This document shows positions 23,697 through 64,000 of a DNA stretch of 64,000 nucleotides, in pieces (the stretch's first letter is position 1; each line of letters starts with the position of its first letter). This stretch comes from Maribacter sp. (GTDB taxonomy: Bacteria > Bacteroidota > Bacteroidia > Flavobacteriales > Flavobacteriaceae), in contig JAHDDP010000013.1 in assembly GCA_020629285.1 (NCBI GenBank), forward strand, positions 1-64,000, read 5' to 3'. The position numbers and the translations under genes were made by a program. Under the pieces are notes generated by a model that did no database searches, was not told the DNA's origin, and worked only from the letters and a program-made list of their open reading frames with translations.

Positions 23697-25781
23697 TTAT
23701 TGATAAACTCTTACATAATCTACTTCCATAGTATCTTCTGTAAAAGCCGCATCGATAGTACCACCTAATGTACCACCCATAGCGACATTCATTATTAAAA
23801 AGAAATCAGCATTGAATGGTGTTGTAGCATTGTTCACAAAACTGTTATGTACTAACTGATCATCTACAACAAACTTAATACTATCAGGTGTCCACTCTAC
23901 AGTATAATTATGAAACTCAGAAGTTGCATTTTCCACTGGCGTAGATCCTACTACGGCATTACCTGCAGAATTACCAGGATAATGTAATGCACTACTAATA
24001 GTATTGTTATTATTACCAACATGTTCCATAATATCTATCTCTCCAGCCGTAGGCCAACCAACTTCATCAAAATTAGCACCCAAAGCCCATAATGCAGGCC
24101 AAGTACCACCAGCTGATGGAAGTTTAGCTCTTATCTCAACTCTACCGTAAGTAAACTCAAATAAGTTTTCAGATTTAATACGACCCGAAGTGATTCCGCC
24201 AGAAGGAGAAACACCAAAATCAAAAAACAAGACAACTCGATCATAAGTACCAACAGGAACACCAGTGAAATCAAATGTTAGTGTTTCCCAGGCATTTGCA
24301 ACAGTTGAATTTACACTTACCTCAACATTCTCATCAGCATTAGCTTGATTCTCAAGTTTCAAAATTATATTGGCTCCAGCTGCAGGCGACCATGTTTTTA
24401 AACTAATACTAGGATATGCAACAAGATCAACCGGTGCAGACAAATCAAAGAAAGAACCTGCCCATGTCTCAGCACCTAAAGCTTTAGTAGATTCTGCAAC
24501 ATTAGCACTAGTATTCTCTCCCGTAGGATCCGGATTTGCAATAACTGCAGTACCAACACCACCAAAACCAGTAAAAACAGGGGCCGCACCTTCAAAATCT
24601 TCTAAAGTTTGCGTAGCACCACTTCCATCGACTAATGTCATTTCATCAAAATAGTGAACAGCTGCTTCTCCCTCACCAGCTATAGCGGTAATTTTTAAAA
24701 CACCGTCTTCAACTTTAACGTTTTCAGCTGCATCTGTATATGTTTGAGCCTCACCATTACCCCAGCCACCTGCGCCAAGGTCATAACCCCAATTGGCAGC
24801 ATTTGGTGCACCATCAACATCAAACTCATCTGACCAAACTAAATTGGTATAAATGGTTTCAAGACTTTCGTCTCCACCATCAACAGCAACATCAGAAGTA
24901 AATTTATGATACCACGCTAAATCAGCATTCTCCGTATCATATGTTCTTACATATAAGAAATCCTCGCTTATAGATAGTATTTCATATACAGAAGAACCTA
25001 CATAGTACCCCATGAAACCTCCATCAGAAAATGTCATTTGTATTCCAGTTGTCTCACCCTCTGGAACATTTCCTTCTACTTCAGAAAGCTGAACAGCTTT
25101 TTCACCTGAAGTATCAAAATCATAACAAAAATCAATATCCTCACCTCCGCCAACAACAGCTTTATGACCTACATTAAAATATGTTTGACCTTTATTATCT
25201 AATGTGTAAACTAAACCGCCATTCGCATTTACTGAAAATGTAAGTTCATCATCACAAAGACAATCAGAATCTTCCGTTCCACATTTTTCAAATGCAGCAG
25301 CGGAATACCATTTAGGATACCACCAATCGCCATCAATACCTTCTCTAGCAGGTCCAAGTCCTAAGTGACCCTGCTGAGATGCCGCTAAAAACCAAGTTTT
25401 TGAGCTATCGTTAGTTAAAAAAGTTACCGTTTCAGTATCGGTAAAAGCTAATGAAACAGAAACCTCTAAAGTCTCAGATATCTTTTTACCTTCAGATGAA
25501 CCCGCAGTAATAGTTACAGTATATATATTATCACCTATTTCTTCATAGGTTTTTGAAGTTGCCCCAGAAGTTTCCAGAGCACTTGTGCCATCACCAAAAT
25601 CATAATGATAATAATTAGCATTTGTTGCTAATGCTGTAAAGTCGAATACACCTTCGCCCATGTTCTGAGCACTAACCGTAAGATTAGAAGGTGTAACCGA
25701 TTCTGGAATATCAATGTCATCACCATCGCAGCTCATCATTACTGCAAATACCGACACCATGATGTACTTTAATTTTTTCAT
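23697..25781 (-). CDS. GH16 beta-glucanase (laminarinase-like) lipoprotein with PKD domain
   Basis: A 694-residue secreted glycoside hydrolase, probably for beta-1,3-glucans such as laminarin. The N-terminus is a lipoprotein signal (VFAVMMSC, Cys about 19), so it is likely surface- or membrane-anchored. A PKD-like domain spans about 30-108 (YHYDFGDGTSALETSG). A lipocalin-like or glycan-related region (about 110-300, with FSVNANGGLVYTLDN) follows, then the GH16 catalytic domain (about 310-694). The active site GEIDIMEHVG gives nucleophile Glu581, Asp583 and acid/base Glu586. The domain is interrupted by a beta-sandwich insert at about 375-525 (FDFTGVPVGTYDRVVLFFDFG). The neighbouring regulator gene probably controls it. 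Confidence 0.9.
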   Translation of the reverse strand: MKKLKYIMVSVFAVMMSCDGDDIDIPESVTPSNLTVSAQNMGEGVFDFTALATNANYYHYDFGDGTSALETSGATSKTYEEIGDNIYTVTITAGSSEGKKISETLEVSVSLAFTDTETVTFLTNDSSKTWFLAASQQGHLGLGPAREGIDGDWWYPKWYSAAAFEKCGTEDSDCLCDDELTFSVNANGGLVYTLDNKGQTYFNVGHKAVVGGGEDIDFCYDFDTSGEKAVQLSEVEGNVPEGETTGIQMTFSDGGFMGYYVGSSVYEILSISEDFLYVRTYDTENADLAWYHKFTSDVAVDGGDESLETIYTNLVWSDEFDVDGAPNAANWGYDLGAGGWGNGEAQTYTDAAENVKVEDGVLKITAIAGEGEAAVHYFDEMTLVDGSGATQTLEDFEGAAPVFTGFGGVGTAVIANPDPTGENTSANVAESTKALGAETWAGSFFDLSAPVDLVAYPSISLKTWSPAAGANIILKLENQANADENVEVSVNSTVANAWETLTFDFTGVPVGTYDRVVLFFDFGVSPSGGITSGRIKSENLFEFTYGRVEIRAKLPSAGGTWPALWALGANFDEVGWPTAGEIDIMEHVGNNNNTISSALHYPGNSAGNAVVGSTPVENATSEFHNYTVEWTPDSIKFVVDDQLVHNSFVNNATTPFNADFFLIMNVAMGGTLGGTIDAAFTEDTMEVDYVRVYQ

Positions 25782-25841
25782 AGTTAATTTTTTGAGTTAA
25801 TTATTTGATTTACAATTTATCTAAACATAACACCAACTAAC

Positions 25842-26077
25842 TATGTAGTGTTAAAATTAAAATAATCGCTTATGCAATTTACAATATGCAATTATCAAAT
25901 TATAAATTTTTACCACTACAAAAAACATACAATACAAAATAAATGGCTCAAAAAAGAGATTATGATAACCAAATACGTGAATTATCAACTTAAAATCAAA
26001 AACAAAACATACACTACAAATACATGAAAACAGCTATTGTTGTGGTAATGTTGTGGTGGATTTGAATATTGTAGTGG
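25842..26077. promoter_or_regulatory. Cluster of TGTAGTG/GTTGTGGT motifs
   Basis: The 299-bp gap between the GH16 gene and the regulator gene contains no gene but several related motifs. TGTAGTGTT is near 25843. TACCACTACA at 25911 and ACACTACAAA at 26011 are inverse copies. GTTGTGGT lies at 26039 and 26050 (11 bp apart), and GTAGTGGA at 26071. The spacing of about one and two helical turns suggests operator sites. Confidence 0.35.
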
Positions 26078-26080
26078 AGA

Positions 26081-28876
26081 TTACAAATTAATGATATAGT
26101 CTGTTAATCCAGTTTCGTGCGGAAGATTCATTTTTTTACGCAGGCGGTATCGTTTCACTTCAACACTTCTGACCGATATATTTAAAAGAGGTGCAATTTC
26201 TTTAGAAGACAGGTTTAATCTCAAATATGCACATAATTTTAAATCATTAGCAGATAACTCAGAATGCTTTTCTTTCACCTTTTTCAGAAAATCTTTATCT
26301 GCATTATTAAATGCACTTTCAAAAAAATTCCAGTCATCTGCATTGTTAATATTACTATCTATTGTTTTAATTACTGATTTTATCAGTGGAATATCACTAC
26401 TATCTTTCAACTTTTCTTTGATAGTATTCAAAAACTCATTCTTTTTTATAATACTCATTGTAGAAATAGCTAGTTCTCTATTTTTACTTTCTACAAGTTC
26501 TTGCAGCTGTTCATTTTTTATTTGAACTATTTTTCTTTGATTTTTCAGCTTTTTACGTTTCAACCTCTTATTATTCTCCTTGACAAGGTTCCTTTGCTGT
26601 TTCTTGTAATAATCCTTGTACATCTTATGAATTAAAACAGCTAGGAAAGCACCTAATATTATATAACCCAACAGCGCCCAGTAAGAGATGTACCATGGTC
26701 TTTCTATAACAAACCTATATGAAGATGTATTTTTGGTTAATTCATTACCTACTTTTCCTCTAACCTCAAATTCATAGGAACCATAAGGTAAATTATTAAA
26801 AGAAACTTCTGACCCAGTATCCCAATTACTCCAATCATTGTATAAACCGTCTAATCTATACTGGTAATAAACCTCAGTGAATTTATCATATGATGTAATG
26901 TTATAATTGAAGCTTAAACTATTTTGATCATATGAATACTTGTCATTGTCTTTAAAGGCGACAGGAACGCTGGGAACATCATAAGACTTACGTGAAACAC
27001 TGTTAAGATTGATATTATAATCTCGCTTTTTAACATTACTAAGATTTAAAGTGACGTAACCGTTAGAAATTCCAATTAAATACAATTCATTTTCTAAATG
27101 AACTACAGATTCAAAACCAAGAACTCCCATACTTCTTCTAAAAAAATTGGGAATAGATATTTTAATACTTTCTGGTTCTTCACTTAAATGCCCTGTAGAA
27201 ACACTAATAATATTATCATCTGTAAAACCCCATAACCTCTCAAAATCATTGGTAGATTTTAATACCCCTAGAATACTTTCGTTTTTATTGAAAAATTTAC
27301 TGGTCAACAATGTATCTAAAACAAAGTTATTCTCCTTAGCCCTAAATTTGAAAACACCGTTTATAGTTGAATATACTATATCGTTGTTATATCTCAACAA
27401 GCTTGATCCGTTACCTTTCGATTCAATTTGCTTGACATCTAAAGCTGATGTATATGTTACATCTACCTTTATATCAAAAACACCTTTATAATCGTGGTTA
27501 ACTAATATTCGATGATTATCCACAAACTCAAAAAATCTACTTGAGCTATCAAATCCCTTTATATTATTTCTGTATTTCCATGCTCCGTTTTTAAATTCAA
27601 GAATACTCAACCCTTTGTAATTACCTTGAATTAGTAACTCTGAATTTGTTTTTATAGGTTGAATATCCCAAGTACCTGGATAATCTGAAATAAGGGTAGC
27701 GGTATCATTTTCAACAACGTAAGTACCTTTGTGATGCCCACAAAACAAAGTACTGTTAATTTCTTTTAAAATCCATACCTGACCTTCCGTACCTTTAACT
27801 AGTTTAAAGTCTTCCTCGTCGTCACTTTTATAAAACAGTCCTTGATTTGTACCTAAATACAAAACATTATTCATTTTCTTTGCAGTATAAACCACTCCTA
27901 GAGCCCCTACATGATCTATATACTCTTTAAACGGAGAATCTAGATTTAACACACTTAACCCATTATCCAGACCCAGCCATAAGTTATGATCATCATCTTG
28001 AAATAAGGAAAGGACCGTATTATTATTAAGCCCTTTTTCTTGATTTATATGTTCAACTATTTTTCCGTCCTTATCTAAATGATAAATACCTTTTGAAATA
28101 GTTCCCAAAACAAAAGTCCCATCATTTAAAATCAGAGAACTGTAAACTTTCACTGATGACAAATCTATCTCTGATTTAATCTCCCATTTTTCAAGATGAC
28201 CATCTTTCAGGTATAAAAACGCTCCATTCTCAGTAATAACTAACATATTATCTCCAAATGGAAATGCACCAACAATATTATTATTTTTAAAGATAAAATC
28301 ATCGGAAACCAAGAGTGGTTTGCCATTTTCTAATGTAAAAAAACCTTTATCTTTTATTTGAAAATAGACCTTTCCCCCAACTTCAAAAATTTTTGCTCTT
28401 GTGTTTTTTGCATTTAATATTTCAAAATAGCCTGTTTTAGAATTATATATATAAATCCTATCTAAAGATTGAAACAAAACCCAATCTTTAAACTGAGTAA
28501 TATTCCAAAAGTCTTCATCGTCAATTAATGGCTCATTTAATTTAGAGGATAACGAACTATAATTTAAAACCCCTAAATCATCCTTTTCCCAAAAGCCGAA
28601 TTCCATGTAACCTCCAGTGTAAATTTTGCTTCCAATGGATTTTACAGATTTAACAGGAGTACCAAAAGGAGCCTGATATAATTGCCAAGTAGTACCATTA
28701 AATGCTAACAAGCCACTATTATTTGAAACATATATAGTTTGATCTTCTGACTGGCTTAAATTCCAATTTTGATTACCGGCATTATATTCAATAGGAGTAT
28801 AATTTTGAATAGGAGATATTTCTTGAGCAGAAACAAATAAAGAATACAAAAGAAAAATGTAATAATACGGCTTCAT
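26081..28876 (-). CDS. Membrane sensor-regulator: reg_prop propeller, Y_Y_Y and LuxR-type HTH
   Basis: A 931-residue one-component regulator. It has a signal peptide (MKPYYYIFLLYSLFVSAQ). A long periplasmic beta-propeller follows, built of two-component-regulator propeller repeats (for example VLSLFQDDDHNLWLGLDNGLSVLN near residue 300). A Y_Y_Y domain is near 680-745 (YYQYRLDGLYNDWSNW, LPYGSYEFEVRGKVG). One membrane helix lies at about 755-775, then a coiled coil rich in K and E. The C-terminal LuxR/GerE-like HTH (LSSKEIAPLLNISVRSVEVKRYRLRKKM) has no histidine kinase. Such proteins sense oligosaccharides and control polysaccharide genes in Bacteroidota. It lies directly upstream of the GH16 gene, its likely target. 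The ATG at 28876 is preferred because it gives the signal peptide. Confidence 0.88.
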   Translation of the reverse strand: MKPYYYIFLLYSLFVSAQEISPIQNYTPIEYNAGNQNWNLSQSEDQTIYVSNNSGLLAFNGTTWQLYQAPFGTPVKSVKSIGSKIYTGGYMEFGFWEKDDLGVLNYSSLSSKLNEPLIDDEDFWNITQFKDWVLFQSLDRIYIYNSKTGYFEILNAKNTRAKIFEVGGKVYFQIKDKGFFTLENGKPLLVSDDFIFKNNNIVGAFPFGDNMLVITENGAFLYLKDGHLEKWEIKSEIDLSSVKVYSSLILNDGTFVLGTISKGIYHLDKDGKIVEHINQEKGLNNNTVLSLFQDDDHNLWLGLDNGLSVLNLDSPFKEYIDHVGALGVVYTAKKMNNVLYLGTNQGLFYKSDDEEDFKLVKGTEGQVWILKEINSTLFCGHHKGTYVVENDTATLISDYPGTWDIQPIKTNSELLIQGNYKGLSILEFKNGAWKYRNNIKGFDSSSRFFEFVDNHRILVNHDYKGVFDIKVDVTYTSALDVKQIESKGNGSSLLRYNNDIVYSTINGVFKFRAKENNFVLDTLLTSKFFNKNESILGVLKSTNDFERLWGFTDDNIISVSTGHLSEEPESIKISIPNFFRRSMGVLGFESVVHLENELYLIGISNGYVTLNLSNVKKRDYNINLNSVSRKSYDVPSVPVAFKDNDKYSYDQNSLSFNYNITSYDKFTEVYYQYRLDGLYNDWSNWDTGSEVSFNNLPYGSYEFEVRGKVGNELTKNTSSYRFVIERPWYISYWALLGYIILGAFLAVLIHKMYKDYYKKQQRNLVKENNKRLKRKKLKNQRKIVQIKNEQLQELVESKNRELAISTMSIIKKNEFLNTIKEKLKDSSDIPLIKSVIKTIDSNINNADDWNFFESAFNNADKDFLKKVKEKHSELSANDLKLCAYLRLNLSSKEIAPLLNISVRSVEVKRYRLRKKMNLPHETGLTDYIINL

Positions 28877-39536: not shown

Positions 39537-40562
39537 ATGAATACTGATGCTCTGGAAGGAATTCATCAAATCATCAAAAAAATGACCAAAAGTAATCTGC
39601 TTATGAAAATAAAAAGAACAAAAGGAATATCGTGCGAAAGAGCCCGAGCTTTTCCCATCGAAAAGGCGCTGGCAAAACTAGGGCACTTTCCGACAAGGAC
39701 GACCCCCAAAGAAGCTTGGTTCCTGAGCCCTTTCCGCTCAGAAACCCAAGCCTCTTTCAAGGTATGCAAGAAACTGAATAGATGGTACGACCATGGAGCA
39801 GGAAAAGGCGGGAACGTAATAGACCTGATATGTTCGATTAGAGAATGTACCGTAAAAGAGACATTATTATTTTTAGACGAAGATGAACCTCTTTTTTCTT
39901 TTCAGCAGCAATTGATTTTTGAGAAAAAAGAACGAGAAAATGAAAAAATTGTCATCACCGAAGTCAAGCCGATATCACATCCCGCATTGTTGGGCTATAT
40001 CAAATCAAGGAACGTTCAAATTTCCATAGCCAAAAGCCATTGTAAGGAAGTCCATTACACGTTTAAGGGGAAACCGTATTTCGCCATGGGTCTACAAAAT
40101 GAATCCGGTGGATGGGAGCTACGGAACAAGTACCTGAAGAACTGTACCTCTCCCAAGGATATCACATTGTTCCAAACCGGACACAACACCATGATAGTAA
40201 CCGAGGGCATGTTCGATTTGCTTTCCATTGTTGATCACAGACCGGAATTGCGGCAAAAAAGCGATTTTTTAGTAATGAATTCCACAGTTTTAATCCAAAA
40301 AACAATGTCGTTTTTACAGGGGTATACTACCATAAAACTCTATCTGGACAACGATTCGAACGGGAGGTCATGTACGGAAAGGCTAATGGAACATAGGGGT
40401 GCGAAGGATATGTCTTTAATCTATACAGGCCATAAGGACATGAACGAATGGCTTGTGGAACATACCAAAAATACTGTTGGTCAGAAAGCGCAAGATTTGT
40501 CTTTGTTGCCACAAAGACAAACTTGCTTTACTCCCGATGGTCGCAAAGTAAAAAGAAGATGA
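39537..40562 (+). CDS. Toprim-domain primase (CHC2-like N-terminus)
   Basis: A 341-residue primase. The N-terminal region is related to the CHC2 zinc domain (AWFLSPFRSETQASFKVCKKLNRWYDHGAGKGGNVIDLI) but lacks a full set of zinc cysteines. The Toprim domain (about 210-300) has VTEGMFDLLSIV with the catalytic Glu and LYLDNDSNGRSC with the DxD motif. It would make primers for replication or transfer of the element. It overlaps the next start codon by four bases (ATGA), so it is coupled to the MobC-like gene. Confidence 0.88.
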   Translation: MNTDALEGIHQIIKKMTKSNLLMKIKRTKGISCERARAFPIEKALAKLGHFPTRTTPKEAWFLSPFRSETQASFKVCKKLNRWYDHGAGKGGNVIDLICSIRECTVKETLLFLDEDEPLFSFQQQLIFEKKERENEKIVITEVKPISHPALLGYIKSRNVQISIAKSHCKEVHYTFKGKPYFAMGLQNESGGWELRNKYLKNCTSPKDITLFQTGHNTMIVTEGMFDLLSIVDHRPELRQKSDFLVMNSTVLIQKTMSFLQGYTTIKLYLDNDSNGRSCTERLMEHRGAKDMSLIYTGHKDMNEWLVEHTKNTVGQKAQDLSLLPQRQTCFTPDGRKVKRR

Positions 40563-40864
40563 AGAAAACCTACGTTAAATTCAGGTGCTCCATCTACGAG
40601 AAGAAGCTGCTCAATAAAAGGGCGGAACGGGCCGGTATTTCCCTCTCCGAATATTGCCGCAGTTCGGCTTTTGGAAATTCGGTCATCGAACGTTTGACCG
40701 AGGAACAATTGGCCCACTATAGAATGCTGGTGAAGTACAAGGGGAATTTTACCCGCATCAGTAATATGTTCAGGAAGCACAATCCGAAACTGGCCAACGA
40801 GGTCGAGGCCTTGGCAGCGGAAATAAGAAAACACCTCCATAACTTCAAAAGGACCAAGAAATGA
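40559..40864 (+). CDS. MobC-like mobilization protein
   Basis: A 101-residue small basic protein with a ribbon-helix-helix-type N-terminus (KKTYVKFRCSIYEKKLLNKRAERAGISLSEYCRSSAFG). A helical tail (NFTRISNMFRKHN...) typical of MobC/NikA-type relaxosome accessory proteins follows. It should bind the transfer origin and assist the relaxase. Both ends are coupled by ATGA overlaps (40559-40562 with the primase, 40861-40864 with the relaxase). A longer frame to 40448 would overlap the primase extensively and is rejected. Confidence 0.85.
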   Translation: MKKTYVKFRCSIYEKKLLNKRAERAGISLSEYCRSSAFGNSVIERLTEEQLAHYRMLVKYKGNFTRISNMFRKHNPKLANEVEALAAEIRKHLHNFKRTKK

Positions 40865-41730
40865 TAGGAAAGGGGACATCCATAGCGCACACCGGGACAA
40901 GTATCGATTACGGTTGGAACCAAGAGAAGGGTGCCGAAGTGGTCTTCAGTCAACACCTGGCAGGGGAAAACCCCAAAGAGATCACCGAGGAGTTCAGGCT
41001 GGTCCAGGAGGAGAACACGCGTTGCCAAAAGAACACCCTGAGCTTTATCCTTAGCCCGACCCAGGAGGACGGCAGGAACTTGACCAAGGCACAACTAAGG
41101 GAAATGACCCAACGATTCATAAAAGAAATGCAGCTGAAGGAACGACAGGCCATTGCCTTCGTACACAGGGACAAGGCACATACCCATGTGCATCTGTACG
41201 TGAACCGTATTGGTTTCGACGGCAAGGCATATAACGACAGCTTTATCGGAAAGCGCAGCCAACTGGCGGCGGAGAGCGTGGCCAAGGAAATGGGGCTGAC
41301 CACGGTCAAGGAGGTACAACTGGAAAAGGAACTGGATTCCATAAAGGTCCGGCTGGAAATAAAGGACATCCATCATAAAGTAATGGAAAGCGATAGACCA
41401 AAAACATTGGACTACTACATCAAGGCCATGCAAGAAAGGAACGTGGAAGTCATCCCGACAATAAACCGGGCCAATAAGTTGCAGGGATTCCGGTTCCAAT
41501 ATGAAGGCCATAATTTCAAGGCAAGCGAGGTACACCGTTCCATGTCCGGGGGAAGGATAATGGCACAACTTTCCCGGAACGAAGGGATTGCCAAACCAAA
41601 AGAAGTCGGAAAATCGGTCCAATTACTTGGGAAAACGGTGGAACTGGGTACCAACCTCGCAACGAGTATCGCCAAGAACATCATCAAGAAAACCATCAAA
41701 AGGGCCATCGACACGGGAATTGGAATTTAA
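40861..41730 (+). CDS. MobB-type relaxase
   Basis: A 289-residue relaxase that should nick the transfer origin and lead the strand into the recipient. The metal-binding three-histidine motif is HTHVH (His107, His109, His111 in RDKAHTHVHLYVN). Tyr17 (SIDYGWNQ) is the best candidate for the strand-transfer tyrosine. The C-terminal half is helical and basic. No MPF genes are present, so a coresident conjugative system must supply the pore. The composition is GC-rich relative to host genes. Confidence 0.9.
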   Translation: MIGKGTSIAHTGTSIDYGWNQEKGAEVVFSQHLAGENPKEITEEFRLVQEENTRCQKNTLSFILSPTQEDGRNLTKAQLREMTQRFIKEMQLKERQAIAFVHRDKAHTHVHLYVNRIGFDGKAYNDSFIGKRSQLAAESVAKEMGLTTVKEVQLEKELDSIKVRLEIKDIHHKVMESDRPKTLDYYIKAMQERNVEVIPTINRANKLQGFRFQYEGHNFKASEVHRSMSGGRIMAQLSRNEGIAKPKEVGKSVQLLGKTVELGTNLATSIAKNIIKKTIKRAIDTGIGI

Positions 41731-41741
41731 AACTGAAAACT

Positions 41742-42215
41742 ATGGGATATAAAAAGCTGGACGAGGTAATGGAACTGCTCACCGACGAGCTGGACGGGTT
41801 CAACAAGGCCATCGTTAGATTGGAACGCTTTACCCAAAATACGGACAACATCAAAGTAGTACCTGATACTTCGGAAATCGAACGATTGCTCCGAGAACAT
41901 TTGAATTCCGAGAAGGACGGTACTGAAAGGCTTCATGAGTCGGTTCAGGATATCAGTAGTCAGATTTCCAAGGCACGGATTATCCCAAAAACAAAATTAT
42001 GGATTCACTATATGATTTGGCTCTTTAGCTTGATTATCATAGGATATTTGGGATTTAAAGCATCCCGAATGAACGATGTTCGGGAAAAAGCCTTTTCCGA
42101 AGGCGAACAAAATGTCATATTGAGTTTGAGAGGATATTTCGAACAAAACCCCGAGCTTTATGAATCGTACCAAAAATGGTTAAGGGAAAAAGATAGTGTT
42201 CTAGACCAAGAGTAG
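41742..42215 (+). CDS. Mobilization-module membrane protein
   Basis: A 157-residue protein with an N-terminal coiled-coil (LDEVMELLTDELDGFNKAIVRLERF) and one membrane helix (about 93-108, IHYMIWLFSLIIIGYLGF). A short helical tail with Trp and charged residues follows. Proteins with this layout commonly follow relaxase genes in Bacteroidota mobilizable elements. It may tether the relaxosome to the membrane. It starts 11 bp after the relaxase stop and is the last element gene before attR. Confidence 0.75.
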   Translation: MGYKKLDEVMELLTDELDGFNKAIVRLERFTQNTDNIKVVPDTSEIERLLREHLNSEKDGTERLHESVQDISSQISKARIIPKTKLWIHYMIWLFSLIIIGYLGFKASRMNDVREKAFSEGEQNVILSLRGYFEQNPELYESYQKWLREKDSVLDQE

Positions 42216-42470: not shown

Positions 42471-42479
42471 CCCTTGTTG

Positions 42480-42561
42480 TACAGGCGGAGAGACTCGAAC
42501 TCTCACACCTTGCGGCACTAGATCCTAAGTCTAGCGTGTCTACCAATTCCACCACGCCTGC
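42480..42561 (-). tRNA. tRNA-Leu(UAG)
   Basis: 82-nt class II tRNA, acceptor GCAGGCG / CGCCUGU with a G-U pair and discriminator A. The anticodon loop CUUAGGA has a CUAGA stem (anticodon UAG). D arm GGUGGAAUUGGUAGACACG, T arm GUUCGAGUC and a long variable arm are present. The 3' half is element-derived and the 5' half (42531-42561) is chromosomal. Confidence 0.95.
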
Positions 42562-61969: not shown

Positions 61970-62716
61970 TTATTCTATTTTATAAAGCACCGGTCTGCTT
62001 GGGCTAGCGTCATTCTCAAAAGGTGCCACCTGCAAGTTTACAAAGTACGAACCATCAGTAATGGAATCTGGAACATATATGAACTCCGTAATGGTAGCGT
62101 TCAATCTCACCTCTGAATTGAAGTTCCAAAATGCCTTGTGTGCCAGAAGCTTGCCATCATCTTTTTCCTTGTCTACAGATGGCAAGTCGATCAACAAATG
62201 CTCCACTCCCAAATCTTTTAATAACACCATGGCATCCTCTAATATGTAAGGCGGGTTGGTATGCGAATACTGCCTATTTAGTTTTAATGCCAGATTAGGA
62301 AGCGTTCTTATCACTAGTGCCTTTGGTGTTTTACCGCCAAGTAACTTTTGAAATTGATCTTTTGTAATGACCAAATCTCCTTTTTCTTTAGATGGTGTAA
62401 TCGTAATCACCTCAGCCAAAAAGAAAAACTGTTTTAAATGCTGATTTATAGATTGATGCGCTGCAGAAATATGACCAACACATTCGGTATGCGTACCATG
62501 TGCATGCGGATTGAAAGATATATCATAAAAATTGGTGCTCGCCCCTGCCGGAATACTCCCAACAAAATCCTTCTCTCGATGTGGCTCTATCTTTGGGGCA
62601 TCAATATACCAAGCGTTTACGTTATCATCTTTATTAGTGATTGGTATGGAAATATCCAAGGGTTTAGACAGGTCTATTTTGTACTCGTTGGCATTATGGG
62701 TTATGGTAGTCTTCAT
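61970..62716 (-). CDS. Cyclase-family (kynurenine-formamidase-like) hydrolase
   Basis: A 248-residue metal-dependent hydrolase of the cyclase family. HAHGTHTECVGHI (about 73-85) is the metal-binding HxGTHxD-like signature, although an E replaces the D at that point. LLIDLPSVDKEKDDGKLLAHKAFW and the C-terminal VNLQVAPFENDASPSRPVL are also typical. An ATG five codons upstream (62731) is possible. The substrate is unknown; formyl-kynurenine or a related amide is only a family guess. Confidence 0.88.
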   Translation of the reverse strand: MKTTITHNANEYKIDLSKPLDISIPITNKDDNVNAWYIDAPKIEPHREKDFVGSIPAGASTNFYDISFNPHAHGTHTECVGHISAAHQSINQHLKQFFFLAEVITITPSKEKGDLVITKDQFQKLLGGKTPKALVIRTLPNLALKLNRQYSHTNPPYILEDAMVLLKDLGVEHLLIDLPSVDKEKDDGKLLAHKAFWNFNSEVRLNATITEFIYVPDSITDGSYFVNLQVAPFENDASPSRPVLYKIE

Positions 62717-62810
62717 TTTACTTACACTCAAATTATAAGGCAGCTTTGAGATAAGAAATTTACAACTTTTTGGGCGGTTATTTCGAAGGATTCTAGAAGA
62801 TGTGAATATT

Positions 62811-63660
62811 CGTGTCCCTAGCCTGTTCTCGATACATAGCCTGTAATAAAGTGAATCAAGAAGCCTGTTCGTGTCAAATCCTGTTCTCGATACAATTTTA
62901 TACTTCCATTACATTGCAGCTTAAAATCACTCGAACTGACAGTACATTTTATACCACCTCTGACAAATAGACTATTTCAAGTACTAATGTCACTTCGAGT
63001 GGATTTACGAGGTACGAGAAAATTTGTATCGAGAAGCTCGCGTGTTCCGAACCTGTTCTCGATACAATTTTTAATTTCCGTTACACTTCAATAAAAAATC
63101 ACTCGAACTGACAAAACGTTTAATATTAACCTTAACAAAATGATTGTTTCTAGTACTCTTGTCACTTCGAGTGAATTTTTGAGGCACGAAGAAATTTGTA
63201 TCGAGAACTCGTTTGTAAACATCTAAATCGTAAATTGAAAAGGTGATAACTTACTATGTTTATATATTGGAATGTGCCGACAGCACTTTTTACACCGGCA
63301 TAACCTCTAGACTAACTCAAAGGTTAGAATCACACCAATCAGGTAAATATAAGGACAGCTACACAAGCAAAAGAAGACCTGTCACTCTAGTCTATTATTG
63401 TGAATTCACTGACCCCAATATCGCAATTGAAACCGAAAAGCGTATTAAAAAATGGTCAAAAGCTAAGAAAAGAGCGCTTATTGCAGGAGAATACGACGAA
63501 TTGCCGAATCTTTCGAAAAAGAAGTTTTCGTAATAGCTATGAGTAGTCGTGTTCCAAACCTGTTCTCGATACAATTTATTATTTCCGTTACACTTCAATA
63601 AAAATCACTCGAACTGACAGTACGTTTTACCTCAACTTTGCAAATAGATTATTTCAAATT
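62811..63660. repeat. 171-bp nested palindromic repeat family
   Basis: Two adjacent full units, 62870-63040 and 63041-63212. Each has outer arms GTTCTCGATACAA ... TTGTATCGAGAA and inner arms TCACTCGAACTGAC ... GTCACTTCGAGTG. A 5' half unit is at 63548-63660 and a short fragment at 62811-62836. The two full units are direct, head-to-tail copies. They surround the GIY-YIG gene. Confidence 0.85.
63243..63533 (+). CDS. GIY-YIG nuclease family protein
   Basis: A 96-residue single GIY-YIG domain. VYI (6-8) and YTG (17-19) stand for the GIY and YIG tyrosines. Arg27 (RLTQRLESH) and Glu65 in ETEKRIKKW are candidate catalytic residues. A basic C-terminus (KWSKAKKRALIAG) may bind DNA. The reading frame begins with GTG at 63243. 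No partner domain is present. It sits directly between the second full 171-bp repeat and a half repeat, which suggests a functional link to repeat spread or maintenance. Confidence 0.9.
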   Translation: MITYYVYILECADSTFYTGITSRLTQRLESHQSGKYKDSYTSKRRPVTLVYYCEFTDPNIAIETEKRIKKWSKAKKRALIAGEYDELPNLSKKKFS

Positions 63661-64000
63661 CAACATAAACAAATCTGCCGCAATGCCGTCTGCTAGAAAC
63701 ATCCCTTTTTTAGTGGTCTTCAGAATGTCACCGTCAACAAAAAGTAAATGCTCTTCTAGAAACTTATCGGCTTGCATTAGCGCATATTCTTTGTATTGAG
63801 GACCGAATTCAGTTGATATTCTAGTAAGAGACACACCCCAGATAGTCCGCAAGCCTGTCATCACATACTCGTTGTATTTATCGGTCGCAGAAAGTACTTC
63901 CACCTCCATGGGTAATATATTCCGCGCTATGGATTTTATATACTTAGGGTTATTATTAATATTCCATCCTCTGCGTACACCATCAAAAGAATGTGCAGAC
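63649..64000 (-). CDS. hemW: HemW-like radical SAM heme chaperone (C-terminal part)
   Basis: Partial gene, open to the end of the window. The frame continues upstream of the ATG at 63909 as SAHSFDGVRRGWN...ILPMEVEVLSATDKYNEYVMTGLRTIWGV, which is the conserved C-terminal region of HemW (oxygen-independent coproporphyrinogen oxidase-like). The radical SAM CxxxCxxC part lies beyond the window. The last codons and the stop (63649-63651) fall in sequence shared with the 171-bp repeat, so the repeat seems to have replaced or extended the original end. Confidence 0.85.
   Translation of the reverse strand, partial: SAHSFDGVRRGWNINNNPKYIKSIARNILPMEVEVLSATDKYNEYVMTGLRTIWGVSLTRISTEFGPQYKEYALMQADKFLEEHLLFVDGDILKTTKKGMFLADGIAADLFMLNLK

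Follow-up and report, generated by a model that had tools for sequence, protein, structure and literature searches.

A single-domain GIY-YIG nuclease gene that co-occurs and co-varies with inverted hairpin repeats in Maribacter and related bacteria

Results

Layout of the hairpin-nuclease locus

We analysed 64,000 nucleotides of Maribacter sp. DNA (contig JAHDDP010000013.1, positions 1 to 64,000; hereafter the window). Two full repeat copies lie in tandem at 62880-63035 and 63052-63207, with 79% identity and a spacing of 172, followed by a small GIY-YIG gene on the plus strand (63243-63533) and a half copy beginning at about 63548. Coordinates, word counts and the Pfam match of the gene product (GIY-YIG, PF01541; 62.1 bits, cut-off 22.6) bear out the sequence-only reading, which had placed two full copies and a half copy beside a GIY-YIG gene. 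Six instances of GTTCTCGATACAATTT, allowing up to two mismatches, occur in the window, five of them inside the hairpin-nuclease locus (0.04 expected), and all five instances of TCACTCGAACTGAC fall within this locus (0.18 expected).

Each repeat of the 171-bp period consists of two hairpin elements in inverted orientation, a single element comprising TTCTCGATAC, a variable inverted-repeat core and CACTCGAACTGACA. The order in the window is X1 (+), Z1 (-), X2 (+), Z2 (-), the GIY-YIG gene and X3 (+), so the gene is flanked on each side by a TTCTCGATAC tag. Hairpin X1 (TTCTCGATAC-core-CACTCGAACTGACA) occupies 62884..62941 on the plus strand. A gene-less, REPIN/MITE-like hairpin pair of 126 bp follows at 62988..63113 and reads TGTCA-Z1-20 bp-X2-TGACA (Z1 at 62994-63035, minus; X2 at 63056-63107, plus), the element order of complete dispersed copies. 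The gene-bearing unit of 460 bp at 63160..63619 reads TGTCA-Z2-GIY-YIG gene-X3-TGACA, with Z2 at 63166-63207 on the minus strand and X3, the half copy of the sequence-only reading, forming the right end of the array on the plus strand (63563..63619 including TGACA; hairpin 63563-63613). From the sequence comparison we infer that the TGTCA/TGACA ends mark the boundary of the 460-bp unit, because two genus genomes (G005 and G007) have the cassette in common. An isolated tag, GTTCTCGATACA, at 62825..62836 (+), recognised by sequence and by its likeness to a tag at the left array edge in genome G026, is probably the leftover of one more hairpin. Elsewhere in the window, primase-like and relaxase-like ORFs (named by eye) at 39537-42215 lie beside a tRNA-Leu at 42479-42561, a region that looks like a mobilisable element.

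The nuclease

The gene starts with GTG and encodes 96 amino acids in which GIY-YIG is the sole domain found. Seventeen alignment columns are invariant among 15 relatives of the protein, including Y7, G19, R27, H31 and E65, which we take to be catalytic. The predicted model has a mean pLDDT of 88.3, and its nearest PDB entries by both sequence and fold are the UPF0213 proteins 1zg2 (E 8.7e-21 by sequence) and 1ywl, with a moderate fold match (TM-score only 0.54-0.60); the branched-DNA nuclease Slx1 comes next by fold, also with a moderate score. Domain content, alignment, model and fold thus place the protein among UPF0213-like single-domain nucleases. Across ten genes of the window clade, mean dN was 0.067 and mean dS 1.32, a ratio of 0.05 over 45 pairs that is rough because synonymous sites are near saturation; the G005/G007 pair gave a dN of 0.050 and a dS of 0.53. 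Judged by these substitution estimates, the nuclease is kept by selection.

A close-relative search of viral contigs returned no relative of the nuclease, and plasmid and phage relatives amounted to two distant plasmid records and one partial phage record; a viral or plasmid origin was therefore dropped. In a small sample of six loci taken from records of plasmids and phages, TTCGA...CTCA elements stood beside the gene at two Methylobacterium loci and one Sphingomonas locus, and no such elements were found beside it at the S. paeninsulae, Subdoligranulum and phage contig loci. The alpha-Proteobacterial elements have the core in common and are devoid of the TGTCA end. At the Sphingomonas paeninsulae locus (L338) the GIY-YIG gene lies in the rnc-era interval, has no hairpins and is perhaps a fixed host copy.

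Association of hairpins with one nuclease clade

Nuclease matches at E <= 1e-15 were found in 27 of 60 genus genomes, the own genome included. All 17 genus loci with E <= 2.4e-35 carried TTCTCGATAC tags within about 300 bp, and 15 weaker matches examined had none nearby, bar one bare tag about 1.5 kb away. Many weaker matches carried instead elements of a second class (class II), which read stem-TCGACnn(n)GCTC-stem', mostly followed by TGAC (60 elements shown).

We then used the best 80 of 515 loci confirmed in a profile scan of named genomes, which come mostly from Flavobacteriaceae and also from Weeksellaceae, Sphingobacteriaceae, Chitinophagaceae, Ignavibacteriota, Nitrospinota and Nitrospirota. 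A class I or II hairpin lay within 600 bp of the gene in 72 of these best 80 (28 class I, 41 class II, 3 both and 8 neither). Looser patterns revealed variants in six of the eight remaining loci (L121, L139, L148, L151, L165 and L178) and no hairpin in L174 and L186; L151 bridges the classes, having class II tags with a hairpin inside. The sequence-only reading had proposed repeat enrichment beside the nuclease as its test, and the enrichment is clear in these best 80 of 515: the density of the class I outer tag is 1.22 per kb up to 600 bp from the nuclease and falls to 0.033 per kb beyond 1.5 kb, and that of class II elements falls from 1.37 to 0.027 per kb. An exact word of at least 14 nt was common to both 400-bp gene flanks in 66 of 74 loci (from the best 80 of 515, six with short flanks being left out), compared to 33 of 2618 control positions taken from those loci.

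Together with 57 loci from the genome search, the best 80 of 515 make up 137 classified loci, some of them near copies, of which 13 bear neither class. A small nuclease clade mostly without hairpins comprises L016 (the own genome's second nuclease), L041, L043 and L186, and its relatives L037 and L176 have class II elements. As controls we took 12 genomes (11 of the genus, 1 of the order) in which the first protein search at E <= 1e-15 had given no relative; among their 56 PF01541 matches, 30 were taken as loci, and neither hairpin class was found at the 18 long or the 12 other small GIY-YIG loci.

The elements are also mostly oriented: the nearest upstream element was minus-oriented in 91 of the 112 loci having one, the nearest downstream element was plus-oriented in 80 of 104, and median gaps from the gene to its nearest hairpins were 35 and 14 bp. 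At class II loci including L141, L159 and L161, the 3' end of the nuclease gene extends into the downstream element, and part of the nuclease C-terminus is thus encoded by hairpin sequence. Two further observations concern individual loci. A different small GIY-YIG gene is triplicated in tandem, at a spacing of about 400 bp, in two genomes (L092 and L103 in G017:C34, and G033:C1:3130649-3131665), one copy in each having a stop, and words common to its flanks may simply be tandem copies. Locus L145, on a contig titled as a Klebsiella pneumoniae MAG, has a class I nuclease match with tags and is probably a mis-binned flavobacterial contig.

Co-variation with the nuclease tree and folding

On a tree of 135 nuclease proteins (137 minus two), two exchanges between class I and class II suffice for the 117 rows with a single hairpin class, and class I as a label required seven changes compared to 40.2 in shuffles (none of 500 as low), counts to be read with the protein being short, many forks weakly supported and near copies favouring clustering. 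One class II locus (L133) lies inside the class I clade. Sequence comparison thus shows that nuclease clade and hairpin class co-occur and vary together across the nuclease tree.

Within an element, the two stem halves match better than after re-pairing between elements: 4.49 versus 1.74 bp for class II stems (257 elements), 5.67 versus 2.97 bp for class I cores (304 unique cores) and 4.87 versus 2.03 bp for 94 non-redundant class I cores. This matching supports folding at the family level. In the window itself, four hairpins tested singly showed no folding advantage over shuffled sequences (z 0.15 to 0.52), and the gene-less pair, tested as 129 nt, showed a strong one (z -3.98).

Dispersed copies and phase of the unit

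The own genome, whose assembly is 83% complete, holds 14 repeat matches on six contigs, and its contig 11 carries a 171-bp array of five copies and a part copy. Of its three nuclease matches, on contigs 38, 111 and 25, the one on contig 38 alone has hairpin repeats within 1.5 kb. Among 18 hand-picked dispersed regions from G021, G025 and G026, nine hold a complete TGTCA...TGACA pair and nine hold partial forms; in complete pairs the two TTCTCGATAC tags are central and as a rule about 20 bp apart. Complete dispersed pairs thus have TGTCA and TGACA as their outer ends, which makes the opposite phase of the 171-bp period the natural unit. The nested 171-bp palindrome of the sequence-only reading is therefore real as a repeat, but its unit is an inverted pair of hairpins, and the phase given there for the dispersed unit is ruled out. 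Read at the sequence level, then, hairpins are arranged as inverted pairs bounded by TGTCA...TGACA, and gene-less pairs are dispersed through genomes.

In the window clade the gene occupies the middle of such a pair, TGTCA-Z2-gene-X3-TGACA. A rule that the gene is always central in a pair is excluded by G005 and G007, where it stands between two pairs, and both class I phases are common near nucleases (41 '-+' versus 53 '+-' neighbours). By one strict pattern, 36 genus genomes hold 0 to 30 hairpin copies each, and in the 14 with a close nuclease 63 of 188 such hairpins lie inside the nuclease locus (<=3.3 kb). Genome G022, which has two tandem nuclease copies, shows a local expansion, with many hairpin pairs, often about 260-390 bp apart, in two stretches (C12, ~432700-447600; C13, ~24600-28100).

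Changes of place and copy number

Genes flanking the window locus were matched in all 22 genus genomes searched. At this site, seven genomes have the nuclease (two copies in two of them) and three carry hairpins without it, leaving 12 that lack both gene and array; the sequence was read at eight of the 12, and a tag fragment persists in G028. The gene is thus missing in 15 of 22 relatives, rather than conserved in place without repeats as would have counted against the sequence-only reading. Tandem nuclease gene copies occur in two genus genomes.

Four of the 12 genomes (G005, G007, G011 and G032) have a close nuclease at another place. The G005 cassette aligns with the differently placed G007 cassette over 780 bp at 82%, the similarity beginning at GTCACTTCGAGTG and stopping at TGACA, with TGTCA and CGTCA as the left ends of the cassettes in G005 and G007; the G005 cassette site is empty in G007 and G009, and no target-site duplication was seen in this one comparison. 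These alignments show that the nuclease-hairpin cassette occupies different loci in two related species, with duplication followed by losses from a once common double state being a possible origin of the difference. The G005 cassette also has class II-like sequence inside the central spacer of its class I pairs (L026:1129-1908).

A clean empty site with target duplication, sought at four places and read at three, was not found. At the L218 site, relatives have 0, 1 or at least 3 hairpins. At the orthologous L226/L297 site, class I and II pairs with like words in their central spacers interchange between species, amid other simple repeats. Hairpin copies were more numerous in genomes with a close nuclease (median 13.5 in 14 genomes versus 3.0 in 22 without, p = 4e-5), also with local copies excluded (7.5 versus 3.0, p = 0.0055, same 36 genomes); these p-values treat genomes as independent, ignoring kinship, several genomes are incomplete, and the 14 include G024, whose gene is broken by an internal TAG. 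The main exception is G033, with 30 hairpin copies and no close nuclease. On this comparative evidence, the cassette and hairpins do change place and number, and the nuclease and hairpins, found together in many marine and soil bacteria, appear to move together.

Discussion

By analogy and from the sequence patterns above, we think it probable that nuclease and hairpins form a partnership that works like RAYT and REPIN, in which the role of the HUH tyrosine transposase falls to a single-domain GIY-YIG nuclease. The nuclease would recognise a folded single strand, its address being the conserved TCGA...CTC segment around the variable hairpin together with the TGAC tail. It might nick the hairpin when DNA becomes single-stranded, on the lagging strand or during DNA uptake, and nicking could promote copying or relocation of the hairpin pair and occasionally of the unit holding the nuclease gene; arrays may grow and shrink through recombination between direct copies. 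More tentatively, and possible rather than probable, nucleases of about 96 residues of this single-domain kind would be dedicated mobilisers of a superfamily of TCGA...CTC-core hairpins, mostly with TGTCA ends, in Bacteroidota, Ignavibacteriota and Nitrospinota.

The recognition step is common to a different explanation, in which the nuclease is a site-specific ssDNA nuclease and the hairpins are marks controlling DNA uptake or recombination, their spread being incidental or host-selected. Strong purifying selection suits such a host function, and a precedent reportedly exists in Ssn, a published GIY-YIG family of site-specific ssDNA nucleases with cognate dispersed NTS repeats in Neisseria. 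We nevertheless consider this explanation rather unlikely, as the gene is absent from the window site in most relatives and the cassette, hairpins included, lies at different loci in related species in the manner of a mobile unit.

Proximity of hairpins to both gene ends would also be expected if their role were local, as terminators or attenuators for the nuclease gene, but gene-less copies elsewhere in the same genomes, multi-copy arrays at many loci and the lack of any Rfam match in 62700-63700 make this quite improbable. A further explanation takes the hairpins to be repeats in their own right and the nuclease gene to be carried along in intergenic islands rich in repeats, which would fit the one site at which class I and II pairs interchange amid other simple repeats. 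Against such chance company, the link is limited to one nuclease clade and absent at 30 other GIY-YIG loci, hairpin class follows the nuclease tree and element orientation is mostly fixed, so that we find it very hard to credit.

If the RAYT-like partnership is true, these nucleases would cut ssDNA at predictable addresses, and the arrangement of RAYT and REPIN would have arisen a second time with an unrelated enzyme. If, beyond this, such nucleases are dedicated mobilisers, the 460-bp TGTCA-hairpin-gene-hairpin-TGACA unit would rank among the smallest self-mobile DNA elements and, to our knowledge, would be the first case in bacteria of a transposon-like element that owes its movement to a GIY-YIG enzyme.

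Comparison with known systems

The UPF0213 proteins 1zg2 and 1ywl were deposited as hypothetical, and their entries carry no repeat link. Like the reported Ssn enzymes, the nuclease is a small GIY-YIG enzyme with a cognate dispersed sequence, but host and repeat differ, and its many cognate copies (up to 30 per genome) are far below the hundreds of NTS copies said to occur in Neisseria. With respect to insertion sequences, ends were seen in one cassette comparison and no duplication was visible. A search of titles and abstract starts, covering few subscription papers and no bioRxiv and with sequence words perhaps unindexed, returned no report linking GIY-YIG, UPF0213 or COG2827 with REP-type repeats or class II words, and the text of PMC12306157 mentions neither GIY nor RAYT.

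In the portions available to us, accounts of RAYT and REPIN describe an enzyme gene beside repeats, gene-less inverted doublets elsewhere and enzyme-specific repeat classes (PMC3116915). The system described here resembles them in its enzyme gene beside hairpins, dispersed inverted doublets, tandem clusters and clade-specific repeats (PMC3116915, PMC3733652), and its two inverted REP-like hairpins fold together as in REPINs. The linked enzyme is not a RAYT, because it is a GIY-YIG protein lacking the HUH motif and catalytic tyrosine of the IS200/IS605 type, and the tags are TTCTCGATAC and TGTCA instead of the GTAG that accompanies a RAYT partner. RAYTs are described in those same portions as single-copy and not self-moving (PMC3116915, PMC3733652), whereas here tandem gene copies occur in two genomes and a gene-bearing cassette lies at different loci. 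The RAYT/REP-like role suggested by the sequence-only reading finds support as an analogy in logic, through association, co-variation and dispersed pairs, with an unrelated enzyme.

The repeats can also be set beside CGTC-tagged REPs, often TGTC, which a 2013 survey, in its available part, reports as hairpins and dimers from Bacteroidetes and alpha-Proteobacteria among others, and which "seem lacking a dedicated transposase" (PMC3733652). Complete copies here have the corresponding TGTCA ends, but the 8-9 bp stem, 4-5 nt loop and CCA tail described there do not fit, class II stems being mostly 3-7 bp around TCGACnn(n)GCTC and class I containing a further hairpin; for this reason we do not claim membership. 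Unlike the surveyed repeats, those described here have a linked nuclease. The phylogeny of the nuclease clade predicts the surrounding hairpin class, which makes the nuclease a testable candidate for CGTC/TGTC repeats listed as transposase-less in that part of the survey, and, if such nucleases are dedicated mobilisers, it would supply the enzyme missing from such surveys. From its sequence associations, we propose the nuclease as a candidate for the enzyme that partners one class of bacterial repeats.
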